A DNA stretch of 33,610 bases from Neglectibacter sp. X58 (GTDB lineage: Bacteria > Bacillota > Clostridia > Oscillospirales > Acutalibacteraceae), in contig NZ_QWEO01000033.1 of the NCBI RefSeq assembly GCF_009936035.1, positions 1 to 33,610 on the forward strand. Reading direction: 5' to 3'. Within the stretch, counting starts at the first letter, position 1. Each line of letters opens with the position of its first letter. The translations under genes were made by a program, and so were the position numbers. The notes beneath the pieces are model-generated. The model saw nothing but the letters and a program-made list of their open reading frames with translations. It searched no databases and was not told the origin of the DNA. Below are positions 12,833 to 32,026 of this stretch, in pieces.

Positions 12833-13186
12833 TTATGTAGCCCGCAGGCCGAAGCTGATGGAGAGGGCCTGGTTTACCCTGTCCATAGAGTCCCTGTCCA
12901 GCTTGCCCATTTTCTCCCGGAGGCGGTGCTTGTCGATGGTGCGCACCTGCTCTAAAAGCACCACAGAATCCTTTAAAAGGCCGCTGCCCTGGGCGTCCAC
13001 CTCTATGTGGGTGGGCAGGTTTGCCTTGTCCCGCTGGCTGGTGATAGCCGCCGCGATAACTGTAGGGCTGAACCGGTTGCCCACATCGTTCTGCACAATC
13101 AGCACAGGCCGCACGCCTCCCTGCTCCGAGCCTACCACAGGGCTTAAGTCTGCATAATAAATATCGCCTCTACGCACGTTCACCAT
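12833..13186 (-). CDS. mazF: MazF/PemK-family endoribonuclease toxin
   Basis: The protein has 117 residues, matching Firmicute EndoA/MazF in length and sequence. The N-terminus is [20 protein letters not shown], then RPVLIVQND and the core TVIAAAITS (conserved catalytic Arg in the N-terminal RRGD-region and Ser/Thr in AITS). Members cut single-stranded RNA at short motifs such as UACAU. Start ATG 13186 follows GGAG by 8 nt; longer in-frame starts have no homology. The usual MazE antitoxin gene directly upstream is absent: the next upstream DNA is a 250-bp gap and a divergent gene. It may be held by an antitoxin elsewhere. Confidence 0.9.
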
Positions 13187-13373
13187 ATTCACGCTCCGCA
13201 TAAGAATTGCCATGGGGTACGGGGCTGCCCGTACCGCTCCTTCCTGCTGTATTGCCATAATCGGCTTTCACAGGTATTTTGCCCAGGAAAAACCGGATTT
13301 AATCAAAGGCAGGATTTTTTGAGGAATCCCTCTGTTCCATTTTATTGGCCCGGGCCGGTTTTGTGCGCAGGTA

Positions 13374-20064: not shown

Positions 20065-20093
20065 TTGATTTTTCACCTGCCTTTCTGTATAAT
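20065..20093 (+). promoter_or_regulatory. Promoter of the receiver/kinase operon
   Basis: TTGATT (20065-20070), a 17-bp spacer and TATAAT (20088-20093), about 55 bp before the receiver gene. Confidence 0.78.
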
Positions 20094-20147
20094 TTACTAT
20101 ATATGGACTGGGGGATTCCCCGGCAACGAAACAAGGAGGCGAGCCTA

Positions 20148-20510
20148 GTGCAGAAGCGCGTTTTGGTGGTAGACGATGACGAAATGAACCTGACAAGGGC
20201 CAGGATCATCTTGCAGAAGGATTATGAGGTGCTTTTGGCAAATTCGGGGATGGAAGCACTGCATATACTGAGCAAGGAGAAGGCCGACCTGGTCCTGCTG
20301 GATATTGAAATGCCGAAAATGAACGGATTTGTTACATTCAGGCGCATAAAGGAGACGTATGGCGAGATACCTGTCATCTTTTTAACGGCCTCGGGGCTGG
20401 AAGACGATGTGCTCAGCGCAATCAAGCTGGGCGCGGTGAATTACCTGAAAAAGCCTTTCCTGCCCCAGGAACTGCTCAGGCGGGTCGCGCTGGAGTTTGA
20501 GAACCAATGA
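20148..20510 (+). CDS. Stand-alone response-regulator receiver protein
   Basis: The protein has 120 residues, a complete CheY/Spo0F-like receiver with no output domain. The acidic pocket is D9-D10-D11, phospho-acceptor Asp52 (LVLLDIEMP), Thr80 (FLTAS) and Lys102 (LKKPF). GTG at 20148 is set by AAGGAGG; the in-frame upstream ATG lacks a site. Its stop overlaps the next gene's start (ATGA), so production is coupled to the kinase. It probably shuttles phosphate between the kinases and an Hpt domain, or acts by protein contact. Confidence 0.93.
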   Translation: MQKRVLVVDDDEMNLTRARIILQKDYEVLLANSGMEALHILSKEKADLVLLDIEMPKMNGFVTFRRIKETYGEIPVIFLTASGLEDDVLSAIKLGAVNYLKKPFLPQELLRRVALEFENQ

Positions 20511-23038
20511 GGGCGGAGGAACAGACAAGCAAACACCTGCTGCTGGCTGTCATCGCAACAGTTTTCAGCGTGGCGATGAACCTGATGACGGTTTTCATGG
20601 GGTGGGAGCTTTGGGTGATCCCTTTGATGGCGGCAGGCTGCCTCAGCGTGTGGGTTCTGCACATTGGGCGGATTGGCTCCGGGACGCTTTATGAAAGCCT
20701 GTGCGCCGGGCTGCTGCTTTTGGAATACTTTTTTTACAGCGTACACGAAACCAGCCTTTTTGATATCCCCAACATAGCCGGCATCCTGGTGTTTTCCCTG
20801 TTTATACTGAACAGGAAATGGATTCTGCACGCAATGTTTGCCCTGTATGTGCTGGCCCTGCTGTACCATACGCTGGTGCTCCATACCATCACCCCTGCCA
20901 TGGAGCTTCACGACGCGCTGCGCCTGGGGCTTGGCATGGTGGTGGTGCTGGGAGGGACTTCGCTGGCCCGGTACTGGATAAACAAACGCAATGCCCAGTG
21001 GAAATGGTATGAAAATGTGCTGGCAGAGCTGGAGACAGTGGGAAAGCAGAACGCTGTGTTTTTATCCAACGTTTCCCACGAGCTGCGCACCCCCATCAAC
21101 ATGGTTATCGGCATCAGCGAGGTGGCCCTGGGGAAAGACCCTCCCAAGGATATCCGGTCTGATCTGATGTCCATTGAAATGGCGGGCAAACGCCTGTCCA
21201 GCCAGATTAACAACATGATGGACTACACGGAGATTGTGGCAGGCACGCTGATTCCGGCAAAGGAAGAATACATGATCACCTCTGTGCTGAACGATGTGAT
21301 TACCACCACTGCCCTGCAAACAAACCGGCAGCATTTGGAGCTGGTGTTTGATATTGACCCGAAGGTGCCGGCAGCCCTTGTGGGCGACGCGGAGAAGATT
21401 TCCCACGTGCTGAAAATCCTGGTGGAAAACTCCGTCAAGTTCACAGAAGAGGGGGGCGTAAACGTCCGCATAGGATACCGGCAGGAAGCCTATGGCATGA
21501 ACCTGATCATAGATATCCATGACACGGGAATTGGCATGACGGACGCCCAGTTGGTGAAGATGTACGATGACTTTTACCAGGCGGATACCGGAAGCAGCCG
21601 TTTCGCAGGGGGGCTGGGGCTGGGGCTTCCCATTGCCAGAGGGCTTTTGGATGCCATGGGCGGCTTCATCCATTTTGACAGCAAGAGAAAGCAGGGCCTG
21701 CATGCCCACATCGTCATACCCCAAGGCGTGGTGGATCAGCGGCCCTGCATCGTTTTGCCCCATGCGGATAAGCTTTGCATCGGCTGCTACTTCAAGCCGG
21801 ATAAATATGCCTCCGATGAGGTTCGCGGCTATTATGACGGGCTGATTTTAAGCTTGATAAAAGGGCTTAACATCCAGGGGTATCAGGCCCATAATTTTGA
21901 GGGGCTGCTCAAGCTGCAGCGCAGCTATGAGCTGACCCATGTGTTCATTGCGCAACCGGAATATGAGGAAAACCCGGCGTATTATGAGGAGCTGGCGGAA
22001 ACCAAGTCGGTTATCGTCATTGCGGAAAGGGAGTTTGTCCTGAACAGCGGAAGCCGGCTGCTGGTGATACATAAGCCTTTTTCGGCCCTTTCCGTTGCAA
22101 ACCTGCTTAACGGGGAAATGGGTGAACGGGGCTTTATGGAGGATCAGGCCGCGGGCCGCAGGCCCTTCACCTGCATAGGGGTGCGGGCCTTAGCGGTGGA
22201 TGACGAGGAGATGAACCTGGTGGTGGCCAAGGGCGTGCTGGGCAGCTATGGGATAGACGTGGACACCTGCCTGAGCGGGCGGGAGGCTGTGGCCCGGTGC
22301 GAGAAAATCCCTTATGACATTGTTTTCCTGGATCACATGATGCCAGGCTTTGACGGCGTGGAAACCCTGAAACGGATCCGCGAGATCCGCGGCGGCGTAT
22401 ACCAGGATCTGCCCATTATCGCGCTGACCGCCAACACAGTCAGCGGCGCAAGGGAGATGTTCCGCAGCGAAGGGTTTACAGAGTTTGTCCCCAAGCCCAT
22501 TGAGCGCTCTGTTTTAGAGCGTGTCCTGCGGAAAGCCCTGCCGAAAAGCTGCATCCGGTACAGCGCAAAGCCCACAAAACAAGATGTATCCAAAGAGGAG
22601 GAAACTGCCGCCCCGGAAAGAGAAGAAGAGGATCGCGGCCTGGCGGAAGCGCCGGAGGCTGCCCAGCCCAAAGCGGATTTTGGGTCCTCCCCTTACGGCC
22701 GGCTGTCGGAAGCCGGCATCAACGTGAAGCTGGGGCTGGATTATTGTGCCGGGGAAGAGGCCTTTTACGGGGAGATGCTCCAGCTTTTCTGCGACCAGTG
22801 CGCGGACAAACAGGCGGAGATTGTTTCCCTGTATGAAAGCGGGGACTGGGGAGAGTATGCCGTGAAGGTTCACGCGCTTAAGAGCACATCCCTGACAATA
22901 GGCGCGGAAGCCCTTTCCGCACAGGCAAAGGCCCTGGAGCTGGCGGGGAAAAAGGGGGACGCGGATTATATCCGGGAGCACCATCCCGCGCTGCTGCGCA
23001 GCTATACAGAGCTTTGCGAACAGATTGCCGCAATATGA
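20507..23038 (+). CDS. Hybrid histidine kinase with receiver and Hpt domains
   Basis: The protein has 843 residues. It has about five or six membrane helices (15-160), a short coiled linker, and HisKA with phospho-His191 in NVSHELRTPINMVIG. The ATPase has N-box VLKILVENSVKFTEE, G1 DTGIGM and G2 GLGLGLP. A degenerate receiver-like segment (about 395-540, no phospho-Asp evident) precedes a true receiver with phospho-Asp609 (IVFLDHMMPGFDGV). A charged linker leads to a C-terminal Hpt with phospho-His789 (VHALKSTSLTIGA). It can therefore autophosphorylate, pass phosphate to its receiver and on to Hpt, and hand it to the small receiver encoded just before it (ATGA overlap). The signal is unknown; no large outside sensor domain is seen, so it may sense through the membrane segment. 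Confidence 0.93.
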   Translation: MRAEEQTSKHLLLAVIATVFSVAMNLMTVFMGWELWVIPLMAAGCLSVWVLHIGRIGSGTLYESLCAGLLLLEYFFYSVHETSLFDIPNIAGILVFSLFILNRKWILHAMFALYVLALLYHTLVLHTITPAMELHDALRLGLGMVVVLGGTSLARYWINKRNAQWKWYENVLAELETVGKQNAVFLSNVSHELRTPINMVIGISEVALGKDPPKDIRSDLMSIEMAGKRLSSQINNMMDYTEIVAGTLIPAKEEYMITSVLNDVITTTALQTNRQHLELVFDIDPKVPAALVGDAEKISHVLKILVENSVKFTEEGGVNVRIGYRQEAYGMNLIIDIHDTGIGMTDAQLVKMYDDFYQADTGSSRFAGGLGLGLPIARGLLDAMGGFIHFDSKRKQGLHAHIVIPQGVVDQRPCIVLPHADKLCIGCYFKPDKYASDEVRGYYDGLILSLIKGLNIQGYQAHNFEGLLKLQRSYELTHVFIAQPEYEENPAYYEELAETKSVIVIAEREFVLNSGSRLLVIHKPFSALSVANLLNGEMGERGFMEDQAAGRRPFTCIGVRALAVDDEEMNLVVAKGVLGSYGIDVDTCLSGREAVARCEKIPYDIVFLDHMMPGFDGVETLKRIREIRGGVYQDLPIIALTANTVSGAREMFRSEGFTEFVPKPIERSVLERVLRKALPKSCIRYSAKPTKQDVSKEEETAAPEREEEDRGLAEAPEAAQPKADFGSSPYGRLSEAGINVKLGLDYCAGEEAFYGEMLQLFCDQCADKQAEIVSLYESGDWGEYAVKVHALKSTSLTIGAEALSAQAKALELAGKKGDADYIREHHPALLRSYTELCEQIAAI

Positions 23039-23111
23039 ACGCGGTATTTTGAGGCGTGCCCGGTTAAAGGCTTGGGCTTGGGCGCGCTCGTTTTGAGGAG
23101 TGAAAGAATGC

Positions 23112-25811
23112 GTGATTAAAAAATGGTTTGCAATCATCAATGATCACAGAATCAGCTTGTATGACCGGATGTTCCGCATTGTGACGGTTATATGCATGTT
23201 TGCGCTGGTGCTGATCCTGCCCATGGGCAGAAGCATTTGGAACATCCTGGTGCTGGCAGTCAGCCTTGTGGCTATGGGGCTTATTGTAAAGTTCAGCATT
23301 CAGAGGGGGCGTATACAGGCAGGCGCCACAGCCATTTCGGTGCTGCTGCTTCTGATGTTCCCCATCAGCTTTTTTACGGCGGGCGGCTTTTACAGCGGGG
23401 TGCCGGAGTGGTTTATATTCTGCTTCATCTATGTCTGCATCACGCTGCACGGGAGGCGGATGACGGTATTTTTCATTCTCTGTATGGTAGAAACGCTGCT
23501 TTGCTATGGCTTTGCCTTTTACTTCCCCGGGCTGGTGGCGCAAAATACCCAGCAGGCCTCTTTCTTTGATTCCGCGTTTTCCGTAGTTATGGTGGGTATG
23601 CTGACCAGCGTGCTGCTTATGTTTTTAAACAAGATGTATCAGGAGGAAAACAAGCTTTCCCAGCAGCAGAAGAAGGAAATCGAGGAGTTAAACCGGGCGG
23701 AAAACCACTTCTTTTCCAGCATGAGCCATGAAATCCGCACGCCCATCAACACCATCATCGGGCTTAATGAAATCATCCTGCGGGGGGACGTGCCGGAAGA
23801 TGTGGCGGAGAATGCCAGGAATATCCAGGGCGCCAGCAAAATGCTGCTGACCCTGATTAACGACACGCTGGACTTGTCCAAAATTAAATCCGGGAAAATG
23901 GAAATTGTCAATGTTTCCTATGAGACAGGGGCGCTTTTCTCGGAAATCGTCAATATGATATGGATAAAAGCCAGGGAAAAGGGGCTGGAGTTTAAGCTGA
24001 ACGTGGATTCCTCTATTCCCAGCATGCTTTGCGGAGACGAGGTGCGCATTAAGCAAATCCTTATAAATTTGCTGAATAACGCGGTGAAATACACCAGCGA
24101 GGGTTCTGTCACCCTTTCTGTCCGGTGCGAGCGCCGGAGCCTCAACCAGGTGCGCGTCTGGTATTCTGTAGAGGACACCGGGATGGGGATGAAGAAGGAA
24201 AACATCCCGTATATTTTCAACGCGTTCCGGCGGGTGGACGAGGAAAAGAACCGCTATATTGAGGGAACGGGGCTGGGGCTGAGCATTGTCCAGCAGCTTG
24301 TGGAAATGATGGGCGGGCAGATCAGCGTGAACAGCGTCTACACCAAAGGATCTACCTTTATTGTCATGCTGGATCAGGATATTGTAGATGAAAAGGAGCT
24401 GGGCACGTTTACCCTTGCTTCCCGTATAAAGGGCCGCGAAGGGGAGTTATACCATCAGAGCTTTGAAGCGCCGGACGCCCATATCCTGGTGGTGGATGAC
24501 AACGACATGAACCTGATGGTGGTAAGCAAGCTGCTTTCAGAAACCAAGATCCAAATAGATACAGCCCGAAGCGGCGGGGAATGCCTGAAGCTGACCCAGA
24601 ACCACCATTATGACTGCATCCTTATGGATCATTTGATGCCGGAAATGGATGGCATCCAGTGCCTCCATGCCCTGCGCGCGCAGCCGGTAGGGCTGTGCCA
24701 GGATGTTCCTGTGATTGCGCTGACAGCCAATGCAGGCAGCGACAACCAGCTTTTGTACCGGAAGGAAGGGTTCAGCGGGTATCTGGCCAAGCCGGTAAGC
24801 GGGGCGCTGCTGGAGGCCGCTGTGCTGAGCGTTCTGCCCAAGGAGCTGGTGGTGCTCAGCGAGGAAGCCAGCCAGGCGGACATTGAAAAGGGGATTTTAA
24901 TCTTTGAGCAGGTAAAAAGGCGCTCTATTATGGTCACTACAGACAGTGTGTGCGACCTTCCCGGCTCTCTCCGGAAGAAGTTTGGCATTCCTGTATGCCC
25001 TTACTATGTCTGCACAGACGACGGGCGCTTTTTGGACGAGCAGGAATTAAAATCGGATGAACTGCTGCTGCATATTGCCCAGGGGCGCAAGGGCTATTCC
25101 CAGGCGCCGGAGGTGGAGGATTACGAAAGGTTTTTCGCGGAAAAGCTGACAGAGGCCCAGAACATAATCCATATCTCTATGGCAAAGCATGTTAGCGAAG
25201 GGTATCAAAACGCCTGCGAGGCGGCGAAATCCTTTGAAAACGTAACGGTGATAGATTCCGGCCATCTTTCCAGCAGCATGGGGCTGATTGTGCTGTGCGC
25301 GGCCTATATGGCGGAGCACCATGCCGCAAAGGAGGAGATTGTGGAGGCCATAAAGCGGATGAACCGTTTTATCTCCTCGGCTTTCATTATCAACAACACC
25401 CACATGCTGCGCCAGTCCGGGCGGATATCCAAGAAAGTGCAGGTGCTGTGCGATTCCCTGCTGCTGCATCCTGTGCTGGTGCTGAAAAAGAGCAGGATGG
25501 TTGTGGGCGGCATGAAGATGGGCGGGTTTTACCGCGCGGCCAAAAGCTACATCAAGCGCACGCTTCTTGATACCAGGAATATTGACCGGCGCATTCTGTT
25601 TATCACCTATTCCGGCATGGATGAGAAAAAGCTTCAATATATCCGGAAACTAGTACAGCAGTATTGCCCCTTTGAGCGGGTCTATATGCAAAAGGCTTCT
25701 TCTGCCATCGCAAGCAACTGCGGCCCGGGTTCCTTTGGACTGCTGTTTATGAGGCGTGATGACTCTACGGCCTCCTTCTTCCATGTAGCTGAGCAGAACC
25801 GGGCTGAATAG
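23112..25811 (+). CDS. Hybrid histidine kinase fused to a C-terminal DegV domain
   Basis: About 899 residues. Six membrane helices fill roughly 15-180 with the loop TAGGFYSGVPEWF. HisKA carries phospho-His at about 206 (SMSHEIRTPINTIIG), then an ATPase with ILINLLNNAVKYTSEG, EDTGMGM and GTGLGLS. The receiver has phospho-Asp about 506 (CILMDHLMPEMDGI). From about 607 to 890 is a DegV-type domain: VTTDSVCDLPGSL, HVSEGYQNACEAA, VTVIDSGHLSSSMGL, RQSGRISKK, and SNCGPGSFGLLF near the end. DegV/FakB proteins bind a fatty acid. The usual His of the T-H-x-G-P-G motif is Asn here, so hand-over to a FakA-like kinase may be lost while binding remains. GTG 23112 is chosen by GAGGAG 11 nt upstream; GTG 23100 is in frame but overlaps that site. 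Confidence 0.88.
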   Translation: MIKKWFAIINDHRISLYDRMFRIVTVICMFALVLILPMGRSIWNILVLAVSLVAMGLIVKFSIQRGRIQAGATAISVLLLLMFPISFFTAGGFYSGVPEWFIFCFIYVCITLHGRRMTVFFILCMVETLLCYGFAFYFPGLVAQNTQQASFFDSAFSVVMVGMLTSVLLMFLNKMYQEENKLSQQQKKEIEELNRAENHFFSSMSHEIRTPINTIIGLNEIILRGDVPEDVAENARNIQGASKMLLTLINDTLDLSKIKSGKMEIVNVSYETGALFSEIVNMIWIKAREKGLEFKLNVDSSIPSMLCGDEVRIKQILINLLNNAVKYTSEGSVTLSVRCERRSLNQVRVWYSVEDTGMGMKKENIPYIFNAFRRVDEEKNRYIEGTGLGLSIVQQLVEMMGGQISVNSVYTKGSTFIVMLDQDIVDEKELGTFTLASRIKGREGELYHQSFEAPDAHILVVDDNDMNLMVVSKLLSETKIQIDTARSGGECLKLTQNHHYDCILMDHLMPEMDGIQCLHALRAQPVGLCQDVPVIALTANAGSDNQLLYRKEGFSGYLAKPVSGALLEAAVLSVLPKELVVLSEEASQADIEKGILIFEQVKRRSIMVTTDSVCDLPGSLRKKFGIPVCPYYVCTDDGRFLDEQELKSDELLLHIAQGRKGYSQAPEVEDYERFFAEKLTEAQNIIHISMAKHVSEGYQNACEAAKSFENVTVIDSGHLSSSMGLIVLCAAYMAEHHAAKEEIVEAIKRMNRFISSAFIINNTHMLRQSGRISKKVQVLCDSLLLHPVLVLKKSRMVVGGMKMGGFYRAAKSYIKRTLLDTRNIDRRILFITYSGMDEKKLQYIRKLVQQYCPFERVYMQKASSAIASNCGPGSFGLLFMRRDDSTASFFHVAEQNRAE

Positions 25812-26248: not shown

Positions 26249-26459
26249 ATGAATCGGGAAGAAGTGAGAGCATGTGTATTGCAGCGGAATATCCTCTTTC
26301 AATGCTGCAAACTGTTGTCTATTGTTCTCCGTCCGGCTGACGGATTGCGAAATCTGCGGCCTGGAAACGCCCGCCGCAGAACGGGCGGCGGCGCAGAACC
26401 CGGATGCTCCTGCCTATGTCCTGTATACCTCCGGTACCATGGGACGGCCCAAGGACGGT
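26249..26459 (+). pseudogene. Gene start fused to a relic of an NRPS adenylation domain
   Basis: ATG 26249 has a fine GAAGGAGGG site and opens MNREEVRACV, which then runs into sequence without meaning. In another frame, 26337-26459 reads LTDCEICGLETPAAERAAAQ then NPDAPAYVLYTSGTMGRPKD. This is the adenylation core A3 (normally YTSGSTGRPKG) of non-ribosomal peptide synthetases or acyl-CoA ligases. Only about 40 residues survive and no other domain is nearby, so this is debris from recombination. Confidence 0.65.
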
Positions 26460-26466
26460 GGACGGT

Positions 26467-26580
26467 ATGAGGGAAAAACCTTATCATTTGTATGTAGACA
26501 GCAGGGAGAAAACATTACTTTTACATAGCCTTGTGGAGCTGAAAAATCAGCTCATACAGCAGGGCAAATACGGGGATTGC
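26467..26580 (+). pseudogene. Fragment of a small ICE-type protein
   Basis: From ATG 26467 the frame reads MREKPYHLYVDSREKTLLLH then SLVELKNQLIQQGKYGDCV. This resembles small proteins common in Clostridial integrative elements (a helix of the form LxNLKNxLIxQGRYTDxVD). After Val/Asn at about 26580 the resemblance stops and the frame runs on into antisense of the next fragment, so the C-terminus is lost. Confidence 0.5.
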
Positions 26581-26587
26581 GTTAATC

Positions 26588-26705
26588 CTCTGCTTCCTCT
26601 TTTGCCTTACATAGTCCGTTTACAGTTGCTTCTATGACGGAAAGCTCTTTATCGTCTAATCTGTTGAGCTTTGCGTCTAAGCGTCTGCGGACAGAACTTT
26701 TTTCG
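26588..26705 (-). pseudogene. C-terminal fragment of an unknown protein, reverse strand
   Basis: On the minus strand an open segment ends with RLDAKLNRLDDKELSVIEA, TVNGLCKAKEEAED and a stop. It looks like a genuine charged helical protein end, but it has no start and overlaps plus-strand fragments. I cannot name the family. Confidence 0.4.
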
Positions 26706-26727
26706 ACTTTCCTGTTTGGGAAAGGTA

Positions 26728-27081
26728 AACCCCTTAAAGCACGTTGAGGACGCTATCGAGCAGAACGACAATAATTTTGACGGTATCATCAACAACACGC
26801 CCACCCCTACTGCCGACGAGATGGAAGCAAAGGCGAGAAGCGGCGAACAGATCTCCCTTACATACATCAATCTTCTCACAAGCGGCAGGCTCATCACCTA
26901 CCTTGCCGATATTGACAGGCAGGCGCAGGAACGCTTTGAAAGGCTCATAGAGGGCATGAAACAGTCACAGGGCATAACGGAACAGCTAAAGGAAGAAAAT
27001 TCCTTAGAATGGACAGGGCGGCTCAACAACATAAGGGCGTGTGCGAGGGAGATTGTGAACGAGGAAATTGTAAATGTATAG
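26728..27081 (+). pseudogene. Chimeric relic: DUF4316/YodL-like piece joined to TnpV C-terminus
   Basis: The first ~44 residues (NPLKHVEDAIEQNDNNFDGI and NNTPTPTADEMEAKARSGEQ) resemble the DUF4316/YodL-type segment of conjugative-element proteins. The remainder (TYINLLTSGRLITYLADIDR, then FERLIEGMKQSQGITEQL, and NIRACAREIVNEEI) matches the C-terminus of the Tn4451-type protein TnpV. The join sits near GEQISL/TYINLL. No ribosome site or start fits, so it is a recombinant relic and probably untranslated. Confidence 0.6.
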
Positions 27082-27138
27082 TAAACTGGTGGCAGGGTGT
27101 AAAAGCCCTGTCGCTTTTCTTGTCGGGAGGCTATTATT

Positions 27139-27372
27139 AAATTTGCTTAGTTGATAGAGTTTGTTTGAAGATTTATGATGAAATATTTTGTGAGAAGCGG
27201 CAAAATCTTGTGAAACAGCGCATTATGCCGCATTTCCTGACAACAGACCACCCCAATTACTACGAATTTACTACCAAGGGATGAGCTTTGATACGACGAA
27301 ACACCGGGAAATGCGGACATACGGTTTTGCGCCGACCTTTGAACTGCCCTCTAAAATCACATATCGCCCGAC
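27139..27372 (+). pseudogene. Frameshifted relic, unidentified
   Basis: Two adjoining open pieces in different frames: LVKQRIMPHFLTTDHPNYYE to a TGA near 27284, then MSFDTTKHREMRTYGFAPTF and a stop near 27372. Both read like real protein and together suggest a broken gene end; I do not recognise it. Confidence 0.35.
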
Positions 27373-27377
27373 TGGAT

Positions 27378-27412
27378 AAGCCGTCTTTTCTGCATGGAAA
27401 AGGCGGCTTTTT
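27378..27412 (+). terminator. Rho-independent terminator
   Basis: AAGCCGTCTTTTC (27378-27390) pairs with GAAAAGGCGGCTT (27397-27409) with one G-T pair over a 6-nt loop, ending in TTTTT. It probably belonged to the broken gene before it. Confidence 0.8.
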
Positions 27413-27466
27413 CTATGCCCGTTGTAGCTTTGCAAAAAAACCGCAAAATAATTTCAAATTATCTGC

Positions 27467-27520
27467 AAAAAAAGAAGAGCGCTTAAATGGTAAAATAAAC
27501 CGTTTAAGCGCTCTTACTTT
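27467..27520 (-). terminator. Terminator of the XRE gene
   Basis: AAGAGCGCTTAAA (27475-27487) is perfectly complementary to TTTAAGCGCTCTT (27503-27515). On the minus strand it is followed by a run of seven T (A-rich 27467-27473 on the plus strand). Confidence 0.88.
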
Positions 27521-27527
27521 TTAGAAA

Positions 27528-27797
27528 TCAGTTTGGCTTTTTCCTGCGGTTTCCGTGTTCCTCCAGGATCAGGTTTTGTCCTGTCCTGGGCTGCTGGTTC
27601 GGTATGTATTCCAGCAGCTCCGACAGGTCGCAATCTAAAGCTTCACAGATTTTGTCCAGGTGGTCGAAGCTTACCCGCTCGGCTACTTCTTGATATAAAT
27701 CGCTGATAGTGCCGGGCCGGATGCCTGTTTCCCTGGCCAGCTTAGATTGTTTCCACCGGCGTTCGCCGAGGATTCTGGATAGATGAATTTTAATCAT
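27528..27797 (-). CDS. XRE (Cro/C1)-type DNA-binding protein
   Basis: The protein has 89 residues: helix-turn-helix KLARETGIRPGTISDLYQ (about 19-36), then LDKICEALDCDLSELLEYIP, which is the usual end of the short YozG-like XRE family. The C-terminal ~20 residues are polar. It probably represses genes of the mobile island and itself. The ATG is preceded by a weak AAAGGGG site. It lies downstream of the methylase in the same direction. Confidence 0.88.
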   Translation of the reverse strand: MIKIHLSRILGERRWKQSKLARETGIRPGTISDLYQEVAERVSFDHLDKICEALDCDLSELLEYIPNQQPRTGQNLILEEHGNRRKKPN

Positions 27798-27852
27798 CTT
27801 TCATGCCCCTTTATTGGGCATTTTACCAGAAAGAGTATAATTTGTCCGCACT

Positions 27853-27889
27853 TTGTAAGGTTGTGACAAATATCGTAAGAGCCTTACAA
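27853..27889. promoter_or_regulatory. Inverted repeat ahead of the XRE gene, possible operator
   Basis: TTGTAAGG (27853-27860) and CCTTACAA (27882-27889) form an 8-bp dyad with a 21-bp centre, about 60 bp upstream of the XRE start. Two centres three turns apart would suit a dimeric repressor; a role as operator is inference. A minus-strand TATACT at about 27830-27840 is close by. Confidence 0.4.
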
Positions 27890-27895
27890 TATCTG

Positions 27896-28654
27896 TTAGA
27901 AATTGCGGATAATCAGCTCTGCATAGTGCTTTTTGTTGTTCCCGCTGCCGGACAGGTTTTCCCTGCGTTCCACCCTTTCAATATTATAGCCCATATACAA
28001 TTCCCGCACCTCGGGGCAGTCATTGTAGGAGAGGATAAAACGGCCCTTAAGAGGCTCCAGAGAGGCCCGTAAACGCTGGTGGTCATCGGGGGTAAAGGGG
28101 GAGTCATAATACCCCTCGGTGCCAATATACGGCGGGTCAAGATAGAACAGCGCGGCCTTGCGGTCATACACCCGGATAAGGTCTGCAAAGTCCTTGTGTT
28201 CTATGTTCACGCCCCGGAGCCGTTCTTTTATGGCGGTTAAGCGTTCAACCGCATTGTCTACCATCTTTTTACTGGTTCCATAGGTTCTGTGCTCACTGCC
28301 AAAGCTCAGCTTGACCATATAGAAAAACCGGGCGGCCCGCTGGATATCTGTAAGCCCCCGCATATCAGCCTGGGCCACATAGTCAAAAAACTGCTCCCTG
28401 GAGGACAGCAGCCAGTCAAATTCCCGCTGCAGCTCCCCACAGTGATACTTTACACAGCGGAACAGGTTCACCAGATCGCCGTTGATATCGTTATAGACCT
28501 CCAGCTGGCCCGCCTGCCTTTCCTTGGCGAAAAGCACCCAGGCCGCGCCGCCGAACACTTCAATATACCGCTCCACCTTATCCTTGGGGAAGCGCTCTAA
28601 AATGGCTTTGCGCAGGGTACGCTTGCCGCCGATCCAGCCCATAAAGCTGTCCAT
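27896..28654 (-). CDS. Dam-type DNA adenine-N6 methyltransferase
   Basis: The protein has 252 residues. It has the S-adenosylmethionine-binding MGWIGGKRTL at the N-terminus with EVFGGAAWVLF, and catalytic DPPY at about 173-176 (LFYLDPPYIGTEGYY). This is the D12/Dam class, common in phages and integrative elements; relatives often methylate GATC, but the target here is unproven. Start 28654 is chosen because relatives begin with MxSFxxWIGGK; ATG 28666 is in frame but sits against the AAAGGG site. No partner endonuclease is present. Confidence 0.9.
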   Translation of the reverse strand: MDSFMGWIGGKRTLRKAILERFPKDKVERYIEVFGGAAWVLFAKERQAGQLEVYNDINGDLVNLFRCVKYHCGELQREFDWLLSSREQFFDYVAQADMRGLTDIQRAARFFYMVKLSFGSEHRTYGTSKKMVDNAVERLTAIKERLRGVNIEHKDFADLIRVYDRKAALFYLDPPYIGTEGYYDSPFTPDDHQRLRASLEPLKGRFILSYNDCPEVRELYMGYNIERVERRENLSGSGNNKKHYAELIIRNF

Positions 28655-28723
28655 ATAATAGTCCATCCCTTTCTGTAAATTAAGGGGCCAGAATCCTCGG
28701 GCGGACTACCGAAGGGCAGCAGG

Positions 28724-29415
28724 CTATTTCAGCTTTTCCGCGATCCGCTTGGCAAGCACAGCGGCCTTGCACTCGCTATGGGTCAAGCCCAGCTTGCCGC
28801 CGCCCACGCCGGAGATAATACCTTTCTCCACCAGCTCCCGGATATCCTCCCGCCAGTAGCTGGGCACCTCATCCAGGGTGTTGTAGGTGGGGTTGATCTC
28901 GTCGTACATTTTCTTAAACTGCTTGCCGTCCATGATGCTTTCCTCCTTTGCCGCCAGGTCTTTTGCCGAGGCAATTTTGTTGATGTAGTCCAGGCACACC
29001 CAGCCCTCGCCACAATAGCCCCAGTTGCCATCCTCTTTGGTAATGGTGAGCACTGTGCCGTCCTCAAAAGCCTTAATGACCGATCCGCTTACCGGGGCCG
29101 TGCGGCAGTTGAGGCCGTCATCGGCGTTTACCTGGCCCTGGTACGGCTTAAAGGGCTCAGAGGATACGCTGCTCAGTTTCCGATTGACTTCTTTGGCAAT
29201 CTGCCCCAGCCGGTTATAGATATAATCACCGGGACAGGACTTGTTGGCGTAGTCCCGATGGACTGTCAGGTTGCAGCCATTCAGATGATTCATGCGGGTG
29301 TTTTTGTCCGTAGACCACACCAGCTTCTTGATGCCGTTGCGCCTGCAAATGTCCGCACACAGCTCAATGAGGGACTTCCACACATGTAGGCTTTGATTTC
29401 GTTCCTGATATTCAT
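28724..29415 (-). pseudogene. N-terminally truncated peptidoglycan amidase (endolysin-type)
   Basis: The surviving frame holds the C-terminal part of an amidase_2/PGRP-like fold (LIELCADICRRNGIKKLVW, then LTVHRDYANKSCPGDYIYNR, with a zinc-site His and Cys). An SH3b domain follows (DDGLNCRTAPVSGSVIKAFE), then a C-terminal SLH-like motif (VPSYWREDIRELVEKGII). The amidase front half is missing. A good AAGGAG with ATG 29415 starts MNIRNEIKAYM, the N-terminus of another small protein type, which is out of frame with the amidase after about 29385. Thus a deletion joined two genes. An open frame can be drawn up to 29521, but it has no family N-terminus. Confidence 0.7.
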
Positions 29416-29680
29416 AATCATATCTCCTTCGATAATCGTATTCGCCATCCGGCGTAGAATTTGAAAACGCTCCCAGCGACCAGGGCAAGCTGTTCACAAT
29501 GCCCAGGCCACAGGAGCGCACATCGGATTTCAGCGTTCAGCGTGAAGCCATGCGAAACCATGAATACCAGCAGAGGACAGCGTACCATGTTCGCCGTCCG
29601 GCGTTGCGTGTTTCCACGAAAAAGCGCCATACTGATGCCGTTCTATTCGCTGATTTCACATAGATTAAAATTTAGTGTGC

Positions 29681-29711
29681 AAAAAGGGCGGCCTACCGAA
29701 GCAAGCCGCCC
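29681..29711 (-). terminator. Terminator of the serine recombinase gene
   Basis: GGGCGGC (29686-29692) pairs with GCCGCCC (29705-29711); on the minus strand it is followed by TTTTT (29681-29685). Confidence 0.82.
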
Positions 29712-29716
29712 ATATC

Positions 29717-31534
29717 TCAGGTGCTTTCCGTATTCTGCTGGGCCTCCAAAGCCTTCTGCCGCCGTTTCGCCATGTACCGCCTGTTGTACTCGGCTTTCTT
29801 TGCCCGCTTCTTCCGAAGCTGCTCCTGTTCCTCCAATTCTTCCGCAGTCGGTTCCGGGATAGGCACATCAAATTTACCGATAAACTTCAAGTAAATATCG
29901 ACTTCCTGCGTCCGTTCGCCGGTAGACCTGTCCGCTTCATGGACAACGATCTTGTCCACAAACTCGTTAATCATCGGCGTGGTCAACTCGGAAAAATCGG
30001 TGTACTTCCTGGCAAGGGCCATAAACTGATCGACCTTTGCCGTATCCGCTTCAAAACTCTCCAAGTCCGCCTGTGCTTTCTGGATGGACGCTTCCAGCGT
30101 TTCCTGTTCCTGCTCGTATTCGGCAGACAGCACATCAAACCGCTTTTCGCTGATTTTGCCAATCGCATAGGATTCGTAAAGTTTCTTGATGATACCATCC
30201 AACTCTGCCGCCCGCTTCTGCTCCCGCCGCACACGTTGTTTCAGCGCCTTAACGGTTTCAGCCTGCCGGACCTCTGACGCGCTGCGAACCTTCTGAATAA
30301 ACTCGGCCTCGTTCTTGATCGCGTAGGTACTGGCGGAACGTATTGCCTCCAAGACCAATTCCCGCACAACGGCAGTCCGAATAAAGTGCTGGGAGCAGAC
30401 TGTGCTGAATCTGGCCCTGCTGTTGTTATAGGTGGAGCAGTTGTATTCGTCCCGGTCCGGCCTGCGCTTCCCGTTGGGCCTGCCCTGCCAATCCCGCGCC
30501 TGTCCCGCGCTGCCCCGATGATTATACATCTTTGCGCCGCAGTCGGCACAGAACATCAGGCCCGTCAAAGGATTCGCCTCGCCCAGAGTGTCCGTCCGGC
30601 GCACGACCTTTCGCAACTCCTGCGCCAAATGCCACGTCTTTTCATCCACAATGGCTTCCTGGGTATTCTCGAAGATCACCCAATCCTCTTTCGGCGCTTT
30701 TTTAGGCCGTTTGTCCTTGTAGGATTCTTTATAGGTGCGGAAATTAACAGTATGCCCCATATATTCGGGCCTTGTGAGCATATCGGCAACGGTGGTTCCC
30801 TGCCAGATATAACGTTCATCTGAATAGTCCCTGCTCTGGCAAGTTCCCTGGTTCCGCTGTCCCAGGTAGTAGGCGGGCCGCTCTACCTTCTCCTTCGTCA
30901 AAATGCGGGCAATTTGGTGGGGACCATTCCCTTCAATCGTAAGCTGGAAAATCCGGCGCACAACCGCCGCCGCTTCCTCATCAATCAGCCAGTGTCCAGG
31001 GTCGTCCGGGTCCTTGCGATACCCATAGATAGCGTGGTTCGTGGTGTGCTTGCCGCTCATGCCCTTGGCTCGGAGTACGGAAGTCACTTTTCGGCTGCAA
31101 TCCCGAATATACCATTCGTTTATGACATTCAAAAAGGGGGCGAACTCCCCGCTGCTTTGTACGCTGCTGTCTATACCGTTGGAGATGGCGATAAACCGGA
31201 CGCCCTTTTCCCGAAACATAACCTCGGTATAGAAGCCAGTTTGGAGATAATCACGCCCAATCCGGCTCATATCCTTGGCAATCACACAGCCGACCTTTCC
31301 GGCCTCAATGTCCGCAATCAGGCGTTTCCAGTCCGGGCGGTCGAAGCTGCCGCCCGACCAGCCGTCGTCTGTGTAATGGGCACAGTTACTGAACCCATGC
31401 TGGGCAGCATACGTTTCGAGCATCAGTTTTTGATGAACGATCGAGTTACTATCGCCCGCCGACATTTCATCGTCACGCGATAACCTCTCATAGAGGGCCG
31501 TGATCTTCTCTGTGTCCAACCGCTTTGTGTTCAT
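29717..31534 (-). CDS. Large serine recombinase (TnpX/TndX family)
   Basis: The protein has 605 residues. The resolvase domain has catalytic Ser19 (ALYERLSRDDE), then IAKDMSRIGRDYLQTGFY. The recombinase domain (about 165-290) includes the HAIYGYRKDP segment. A zinc ribbon starts with CADCGAKM and ends CSTYNNS...C. A long coiled coil (about 430-520) and the DUF4368-type C-terminus (EVDIYLKFIGKFDVPIPEPT) follow. Such enzymes excise and insert Tn4451/Tn5397-like elements by strand exchange at a GA dinucleotide. ATG has an AAGGGAG site, and its first bases overlap the stop of the upstream TnpW frame (ATGA). The catalytic parts look intact, so the island may still move. Confidence 0.93.
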   Translation of the reverse strand: MNTKRLDTEKITALYERLSRDDEMSAGDSNSIVHQKLMLETYAAQHGFSNCAHYTDDGWSGGSFDRPDWKRLIADIEAGKVGCVIAKDMSRIGRDYLQTGFYTEVMFREKGVRFIAISNGIDSSVQSSGEFAPFLNVINEWYIRDCSRKVTSVLRAKGMSGKHTTNHAIYGYRKDPDDPGHWLIDEEAAAVVRRIFQLTIEGNGPHQIARILTKEKVERPAYYLGQRNQGTCQSRDYSDERYIWQGTTVADMLTRPEYMGHTVNFRTYKESYKDKRPKKAPKEDWVIFENTQEAIVDEKTWHLAQELRKVVRRTDTLGEANPLTGLMFCADCGAKMYNHRGSAGQARDWQGRPNGKRRPDRDEYNCSTYNNSRARFSTVCSQHFIRTAVVRELVLEAIRSASTYAIKNEAEFIQKVRSASEVRQAETVKALKQRVRREQKRAAELDGIIKKLYESYAIGKISEKRFDVLSAEYEQEQETLEASIQKAQADLESFEADTAKVDQFMALARKYTDFSELTTPMINEFVDKIVVHEADRSTGERTQEVDIYLKFIGKFDVPIPEPTAEELEEQEQLRKKRAKKAEYNRRYMAKRRQKALEAQQNTEST

Positions 31535-31752
31535 AGCGAACTCCCTTCAAGCGGCTGGGTCATTTGTGGTATGTTCATTGTACCACAGTCCGCCGCATTT
31601 GTCACGGCCTCATGCTGAATTAAATGCAGAATTTTGTCGTTCATGGTTTCCTGGGCGGTATCGCTGAAATGAACCCGGAGTTTGTAGGTGGTAGAACCGA
31701 TACGCCGGTAGATCGTGGCAGTTTTCGCCTCTGCCGGTTGAATTGTAGTTAT
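31531..31752 (-). CDS. tnpW: TnpW-like transposon protein
   Basis: About 73 residues. The core TATIYRRIGSTTYKLRVHFS, then ETMNDKILHLIQHE, matches TnpW proteins found before TnpX in Tn4451-type elements. The homologous start falls on an ATA at 31750-31752, about 6-9 nt after AAAGGAAGG, where relatives appear to have ATG. In-frame alternatives are an ATG far upstream (31923) with no homology. So it may use a rare ATA start, start weakly, or be dead. It overlaps the recombinase start by four bases. Confidence 0.62.
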   Translation of the reverse strand: MTTIQPAEAKTATIYRRIGSTTYKLRVHFSDTAQETMNDKILHLIQHEAVTNAADCGTMNIPQMTQPLEGSSL

Positions 31753-32026
31753 ATTGGCCTTCCTTTCTTGCGGTAGGTCGCAACCCGTGGTATGATGTTG
31801 GTGGGTGTTCCAGGCAAACGGAAAGCCAGCCCTCAGTTGCGTAATGTCGTTTGCAACCGAAAGCTGGCTTGATGTGCCTATGTAGTTTTGTCGTGAAAGG
31901 ACGATGGTTTTCACAGCGTCCAAAGCATCCTCTCACTAATAGGAGAAAAACCGTGAGTAAAGCGGAACCATTTTCAAAAGATTTTTGAAATTTCCTTGGA
32001 GCGCCCCGGTTTGTTCGCCTATTTCT

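Follow-up and report, generated by a model that had tools for sequence, protein, structure and literature searches.

Hybrid histidine kinases of the BarA/TorS/ArcB type carry a histidine phosphotransfer (Hpt) domain at their C-terminal place, and the RpfC/RpfG pair combines a hybrid kinase bearing a receiver (REC) and an Hpt domain with an HD-GYP regulator. According to the passages of PMC5391125 on RpfC of Xanthomonas, a fatty acid (diffusible signal factor, DSF) activates this receptor kinase through a 22-residue N-terminal sensor region. In Staphylococcus aureus, the two-component system SaeRS is linked to free fatty acids and Fak in the passages of PMC5539427. The sections of PMC8892158 on S. 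aureus FakB1 describe a lipid carboxylate held by a Ser171-His270-Thr62-Ser95 network, an Arg173 that latches the lipid and is required for catalysis, an Arg205 that is key for FakA binding and membrane contact, and a tunnel position, Ala121, at which a bulky residue partly fills the tunnel while the protein is still active. Here we describe a membrane histidine kinase fused to a DegV/FakB-like domain, encoded by a single gene in a 33,610-nt stretch of Neglectibacter sp. X58 DNA (hereafter, the window), which is the entire contig C101 of a 3.36 Mb genome with an estimated completeness of 99.99%. At a probability of about one half, we favour the reading that this fusion gates a His-Asp-His-Asp phosphorelay by sensing lipid and is no longer coupled to the fatty-acid kinase.

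The fusion is the third gene of a conserved cassette, REC / HK-REC-Hpt / HK-REC-DegV (HK, histidine kinase), and resembles each of these systems in part. It shares the transmembrane (TM)-HisKA-HATPase-REC core of the BarA/TorS/ArcB-type kinases but has DegV in the Hpt place, with the neighbouring gene supplying the Hpt; NCBIfam models of this type matched the fusion at 249–304 bits, below their cut-offs of 677–890. Compared by domain plan and not by sequence, it is like RpfC-RpfG in its hybrid kinase, REC and Hpt, in the fatty-acid signal proposed here and in the HD-GYP regulator of five deeper relatives (one of which also has GGDEF), and unlike it in having two hybrid kinases per cassette and a DegV domain as the candidate sensor. 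The RpfG-type HD-GYP regulator is absent from the window cassette, where a stand-alone REC is found, and occurs in the deeper relatives only. Unlike in SaeRS/Fak, the FakB-like domain is here covalently part of the kinase, and the passages of PMC5539427 describe no such fusion for SaeRS. Nor was any kinase–DegV fusion described in the DegV passages of the open-licence literature searched, subscription papers lying outside that search; the architecture may already be catalogued, without study, in domain-architecture databases.

Relatives were collected by a pattern scan of one genome per species (84,980 species), which yielded 135 confirmed relatives. The best 80 of these served as core loci (seven of them incomplete) and, with the window, make up 81 core rows. 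To these were added ten deeper fusion rows (L159–L161, L163, and L170–L175), L163 among them being closely related and truncated at a contig edge; L177 was opened as well. The fusion gene has the following parts:

23112–25811 (+): fusion gene TM-HisKA-HATPase-REC-DegV, 899 aa (open reading frame, Pfam, and NCBIfam)
23112–23666 (+): membrane region of about six helices (full-length model and hydropathy; no Pfam family found)
23703–23894 (+): HisKA dimerisation domain with phospho-acceptor H206 (Pfam; H206 in 76/76 covering core rows)
24033–24377 (+): HATPase_c domain (Pfam; motif residues intact)
24483–24824 (+): receiver domain with phospho-acceptor D506 (Pfam; D506 in 78/78 covering core rows)
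24927–25751 (+): DegV/FakB-like domain, residues 606–880 (Pfam, TIGR00762, AlphaFold2, and Foldseek)

A single uninterrupted open reading frame (ORF; 23100–25811, +) holds the whole kinase–DegV fusion, and the likely start is GTG 23112, 11 nt downstream of AGGAG, as placed by a first-pass annotation made from the sequence alone. That annotation had also considered that a sequencing frameshift might have joined two separate genes. Since the full fusion lies in one frame at 73 of the 80 core loci (five others are ended by a contig edge and two, L050 and L109, are partial), a frameshift in the window assembly is ruled out. Pfam recovered each annotated domain in the expected order on the 899-aa product (HisKA 198–261, HATPase_c 308–422, Response_reg 458–571, and DegV 606–880). 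The six membrane helices that had been proposed appeared in the full-length model at or near membrane length (16–39, 42–65, 68–89, 97–111, 114–137, and 150 on), but hydropathy alone gave five peaks in this region, plus a marginal peak at 568–586 outside it.

The kinase and receiver residues H206, N319, D355, G357, G387, D462, D463, D506, T538, and K560 were invariant in all covering rows among the 81 core and 10 deeper rows. With the HisKA His, the ATPase motifs and the receiver Asp all intact, the fusion has the catalytic residues of a hybrid histidine kinase. The membrane region was its least conserved part, with a mean majority of 0.755 (kinase, 0.933; REC, 0.908; DegV, 0.833). The linker between receiver and DegV (585–602) had a predicted local distance difference test score (pLDDT) below 50 in the full-length model and looks flexible.

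The C-terminal domain belongs to the DegV family (PF02645/TIGR00762). Its Pfam match (E = 6e-42, 144 bits against a cut-off of 27) spanned profile positions 2–278 of 280, and TIGR00762 matched at 154 bits against a cut-off of 99.7. Both profiles thus scored above their curated cut-offs in a check that the first-pass annotation had proposed, and the four DegV landmark strings it had picked out are all present in the translation. AlphaFold2, run on the DegV part with 95 sequences, predicted the two-domain DegV fold (pLDDT 94.5, predicted template modelling score (pTM) 0.91). The first 45 Foldseek matches to this model were DegV/FakB chains, with template modelling (TM) scores by query length of 0.77–0.87 and of about 0.85 to 5uto, 6alw, and 2dt8. 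Among the top structures, several of which are fatty-acid-bound, were 2dt8, 1pzx, 4x9x, 5uto (FakB1 with palmitate), and 7w7h_E (FakB2 with FakA). On a tree of 26 fusion and 26 free DegV domains, the fusion domains formed one side of a 100/100 branch, which is compatible with a single origin, the tool warning of several long branches.

Individual residues of the domain were compared with those of FakB1, with the 26 free DegV domains as a control:

25098–25100 (+): Ser663, FakB1 Thr62 column (carboxylate ligand); Ser in 80/80 core rows with a residue there, free DegV T24 S2
25194–25196 (+): Ser695, FakB1 Ser95 column (carboxylate ligand); Ser in 80/80 core rows with a residue there, free DegV S26
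25422–25424 (+): Arg771, FakB1 Arg173 column (latch and catalysis), relaxed; core R58 Q8 K6 L5 H4, free DegV R26
25518–25520 (+): Met803, at or beside FakB1 Arg205 (FakA docking); core M58 V10 I8 L2 T2 S1, free DegV R26
25716–25718 (+): Asn869 for FakB1 His270; Asn in 81/81 core and 9/10 deeper rows, free DegV H25 N1

At Thr62 the hidden Markov model (HMM) alignment opens a gap, and an ungapped count from the EY/EW motif leads to Ser663. The HMM alignment to FakB1 puts Arg205 one column later, at Gly804 (Gly in 81/81 rows), so that there is no Arg either way; columns 802 and 804, beside Met803, held an Arg in 1/81 and 0/81 core rows, respectively. The domain is therefore like S. aureus FakB1 in its predicted fold, in a family score above the curated cut-offs and in carrying a hydroxyl at each carboxylate position (both are Ser in the window, as would be expected of a FakB). 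It is unlike FakB1 in sitting within a membrane histidine kinase, in having Asn for His270, in lacking Arg205, and in its relaxed Arg173. Because two defining residues (His270 and Arg205) fail, the domain would, by its residues, fall outside FakB proper. Cys870 of the NCGPG motif was invariant (81/81 core rows) and was present in 20 of the 26 free DegV domains.

The pattern extended, with variation, to the deeper rows. In the order L159, L160, L161, L170, L171, L172, L173, L174, L175, L163, the Thr62 column read S S S A S T P P S S, the Ser95 column S S S G S N H N S S, the His270 column N N N H N N N N N N, and the Arg205 column M M M I T F F F R M. Loss of FakA-related residues is thus nearly general in the fusions, and the ligand hydroxyls are retained in most, not all, clades. 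The first-pass annotation had noted Asn for the usual His of the GPG motif; this is N869, and Asn was found in 90 of the 91 fusion rows. The loss of His270 in these rows, and of Arg205 in 81/81 core rows against Arg in 26/26 free DegV domains, lends support to a DegV domain that would sense lipid rather than feed lipid synthesis. The genome encodes three free DegV proteins and FakA, so lipid delivery would be covered elsewhere.

The genes and sites preceding the fusion in the cassette are:

20065–20093 (+): sigma-70-like promoter TTGATT-17-TATAAT ahead of the cassette (consensus scan, 10/12 matches)
20148–20510 (+): stand-alone receiver (REC) response regulator, 120 aa (GTG start, AGGAGG upstream; ORF 20103–20510)
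20507–23038 (+): partner membrane hybrid kinase HisKA-HATPase-REC-Hpt, 843 aa (Pfam; 4-base overlap with the REC gene)
22772–22975 (+): Hpt domain of the partner kinase, the sole Hpt found in the cassette (Pfam)

The promoter is a call from consensus only, with 14 such sites in the window against 6.3 expected. On the 135-aa ORF of the stand-alone receiver, Pfam Response_reg matched at E = 3e-29, and the partner kinase gave matches to HisKA (185–244), HATPase_c (293–406), Response_reg (562–673), and Hpt (756–823). With an Hpt and a terminal receiver encoded together with the hybrid kinase, the window cassette has the gene content of a predicted phosphorelay. An Hpt-bearing ORF lay upstream of the fusion in 73 of the 80 core loci; at L121 only the end of the partner kinase is on the contig, and at L061 the kinase is split over two frames. 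The receiver gene was found in 71 of the 80, the nine misses comprising seven contig-end or partial contexts, L050 (broken), and L076 (not found). All 73 partner ORFs inspected, that of the window among them, carried the Hpt His motif, and all but that of L061 (72/73) also had the motifs of the kinase His and the receiver Asp; the first gene of the cassette had its receiver Asp motif in 72/72. Clustering of the genes around the 80 core loci revealed no fixed neighbour outside the cassette. The widest recurrent flank cluster, a GGDEF protein judging by its representative, occurred at 11/80 core loci, on both sides. At one locus (L036:15956-17434, G009), a hemerythrin-receiver protein is encoded upstream of the cassette. 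In the congeneric genome G002 (L037/L050), the cassette is broken: the Hpt kinase is shortened and the frame of the fusion is without its start, with kinase-REC-DegV still open (696 aa).

Among the deeper relatives, both the Hpt and the output domains vary. The receiver-gene position is occupied by REC-HD-GYP in L159, L160, and L171 (Pfam) and in L161 (by motif), by REC-GGDEF-REC in L173 and L174, and by REC-GGDEF-REC-HD-GYP in L172. A REC-GGDEF protein is encoded downstream in L159 (Pfam) and in L160 and L161 (BLAST and motif), and a solute-binding protein downstream in L159 and L161. The partner Hpt was recovered by BLAST at 35–42% identity in L159–L161 and L171–L174, in L171 also by Pfam. 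The DegV kinase of L175 (1145 aa) itself ends in the Hpt, and Pfam gave no Hpt match on its partner kinase. L177 encodes the Hpt in a separate protein of REC-Hpt plan; read by eye, the C-terminus of the partner has a stretch that resembles an Hpt but in which the usual His motif is missing. On the 5-kb contig of L170, a bare receiver adjoins the fusion and there is no partner kinase. Thus the position of the Hpt varies, yet one was found in every cassette examined for it, L170 excepted. These relocations speak for a relay in which the fusion is served by a single Hpt. The HD-GYP and GGDEF domains on the last receiver indicate that cyclic di-GMP (c-di-GMP) is probably the readout in several of these deeper lineages.

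We infer a lipid-sensing gate from what was observed of the fusion: its architecture and predicted fold, its cassette and phospho-sites, the residues that it has gained and lost, and the single clade formed by its DegV domains. In such a gate, H206 of the fusion would be autophosphorylated first and would pass its phosphate to D506 of the fusion's own receiver. From there the phosphate would move to the single Hpt of the cassette, carried in the window by the partner kinase, and on to the stand-alone receiver, the product of the first cassette gene. Tethered by the linker, the DegV domain would exchange a fatty acid or similar acyl lipid with the adjoining membrane and would no longer deliver lipid to FakA. 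Its filled or empty state would decide whether phosphate flows on or the fusion drains the relay as a phosphatase. A lipid sensor had already been proposed in the first-pass annotation, though without the partner genes of the cassette, its one Hpt or the c-di-GMP enzymes found on the regulator in deeper relatives. Sensing rather than feeding gained ground from the His and Arg losses, the retained hydroxyls and the fatty-acid-loaded fold; the DegV domain may be input or readout.

Several observations weigh against a lipid-sensing gate. Four of the ten deeper relatives (L170, L172, L173, and L174) are without one or both ligand hydroxyls and so could not use the FakB carboxylate site as known, L170 retains the His at the His270 column, and L175 has an Arg at the docking column. 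Asn occupies the His site in one of the 26 free DegV domains as well, so Asn alone is no proof of a sensor. The Ala121 position is Leu in 80/80 core rows, and Leu is also found there in 20/26 free DegV domains. As 99 of the 279 DegV columns are invariant in the core, the chance that three binding-site columns are all invariant is about 4%, given columns as conserved as these, and their invariance makes a weak point when taken alone. The full-length model (pTM 0.40) placed the domains poorly relative to one another and so does not support a REC–DegV contact. No c-di-GMP gene was fixed beside the cassette in the 80 core loci, where a narrow motif scan found seven, and the representatives scanned from the recurrent flanks included no recognisable gene of lipid synthesis. 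Finally, the membrane region may be the true sensor, or may sense something else.

Alternatively, the DegV domain could be a scaffold that has ceased to bind lipid and to which the partner kinase, the Hpt or the stand-alone receiver docks. The Hpt fused behind DegV in L175 would fit such a role, as would the whole or partial loss of ligand hydroxyls in 4/10 deeper relatives and the large share of invariant DegV columns in the core. We nevertheless consider a scaffold unlikely, given that both carboxylate-position hydroxyls are kept in 80/80 core rows and that the predicted fold is that of lipid-loaded structures. It is less probable still that the signal is some other small molecule (a further acyl metabolite, say, or a gut lipid derived from bile), bound in a pocket retuned by clade: His has become Asn at the head-group site in 90/91 rows, Thr has become Ser at another position, and hydroxyl loss is clade-specific, whereas the overall predicted fold is closest to fatty-acid-loaded structures. 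Least likely is a DegV output, in which phosphorylation of D506 switches lipid loading or release and the kinase steers fatty-acid supply via FakA, for although DegV follows the receiver, the usual place of output domains, and FakA and free DegV proteins are encoded in the genome, the FakA-binding residue and His270 are each lost in 81/81 core rows and Arg173, catalytic in FakB1 according to the passages of PMC8892158, is replaced in 23/81.

Overall, the kinase–DegV fusion is rare. In the genus, a close relative of the DegV part was found in 7 of 29 genomes (69–100% identity, frames of 720–915 aa), a set not independent of the 80 core loci, several contigs being, by their length, common to both. 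Matches of at least 560 bits were found in 4/398 genomes of the family sample (among them G174, truncated at a contig edge), matches at E up to 1e-80 in 6/394 of the order sample, and matches at E up to 1e-60 in 7/391 of the class sample. In the phylum sample, 38/398 genomes matched at E up to 1e-50, three of them with kinase fusions (the window's, G884, and G859). Nine of the other 35 matches were opened and showed no kinase fused to DegV; the remaining matches, outside these nine, were frames of 284–397 aa. Two longer frames were rejected as fusions. The DegV frame of G305 (874 aa from the first start) has an N-terminal part that lies opposite a release-factor-3 gene and is without a kinase domain, and is therefore probably a chance open frame; the 580-aa frame of G433 (L178) gave no kinase or receiver match. 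No match to a cassette kinase, as expected of a split version, was found in eight stretches of 5.6–13.5 kb (L179–L186) around free DegV proteins close to the fusion domain; in L180, a weakly similar receiver protein lies nearby.

By the submitters' family labels, the 80 core loci comprised Lachnospiraceae (30), Oscillospiraceae (24), others (3), and none (23). The genome records of the culturable commensals Oscillibacter sp. 1-3 and Sporofaciens musculi are among those with the cassette. Frequent transfer between families was not supported, as the 27 Lachnospiraceae-labelled rows formed one side of a branch on a quick tree of 76 fusions, 24 rows of which had no family label. Many records among L048–L127 (MGBC contigs and isolates such as Sporofaciens musculi) seem to come from mouse gut, a link that we assume here and that would suggest a niche association.

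Elsewhere in the genome, three Hpt matches were found: a CheA-like protein, the fusion's cassette, and one on contig C125. The last belongs to a second relay (L187:3792-9189), in which a REC-HD-GGDEF protein, a 148-aa Hpt protein, and a HisKA-HATPase-REC-REC kinase adjoin. The stand-alone receiver of the cassette is 31% identical to the REC of this REC-HD-GGDEF protein, and a functional link between the two relays would be a guess. Downstream of the cassette, the window contains a short ORF (26274–26528), perhaps what is left of a gene, whose partial match to an AMP-binding enzyme falls short of the Pfam cut-off. Next follows what seems to be a mobile element (26671–31923), with TnpV, a D12-class DNA methyltransferase (27896–28666, −), a serine recombinase (29717–31534, −), and TnpW. 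A PemK/MazF-like toxin gene (Pfam, 128 bits) lies at 12833–13258 (−). An Rfam scan of the window at gathering thresholds gave no matches.

Little is known about how bacteria sense free fatty acids and the state of their membrane lipids from within the cell, and the habitat of gut Clostridia is rich in lipids. A carrier domain of known fold attached to a complete kinase, along with natural variants in which the Hpt has moved, the outputs differ or ligand residues are lost, makes the question directly testable. We tentatively raise the possibility, which at present we hold to be doubtful, that gut Clostridia turned a fatty-acid carrier into a sensor of membrane lipid or free fatty acids within a two-kinase phosphorelay setting c-di-GMP, with DegV acting at the receiver-to-Hpt step, as an independent Gram-positive counterpart of DSF-type signalling. 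If the DegV domain binds lipid, it would represent a new type of sensor, one that would connect lipids of the host or the diet to c-di-GMP-dependent behaviour in commensals.

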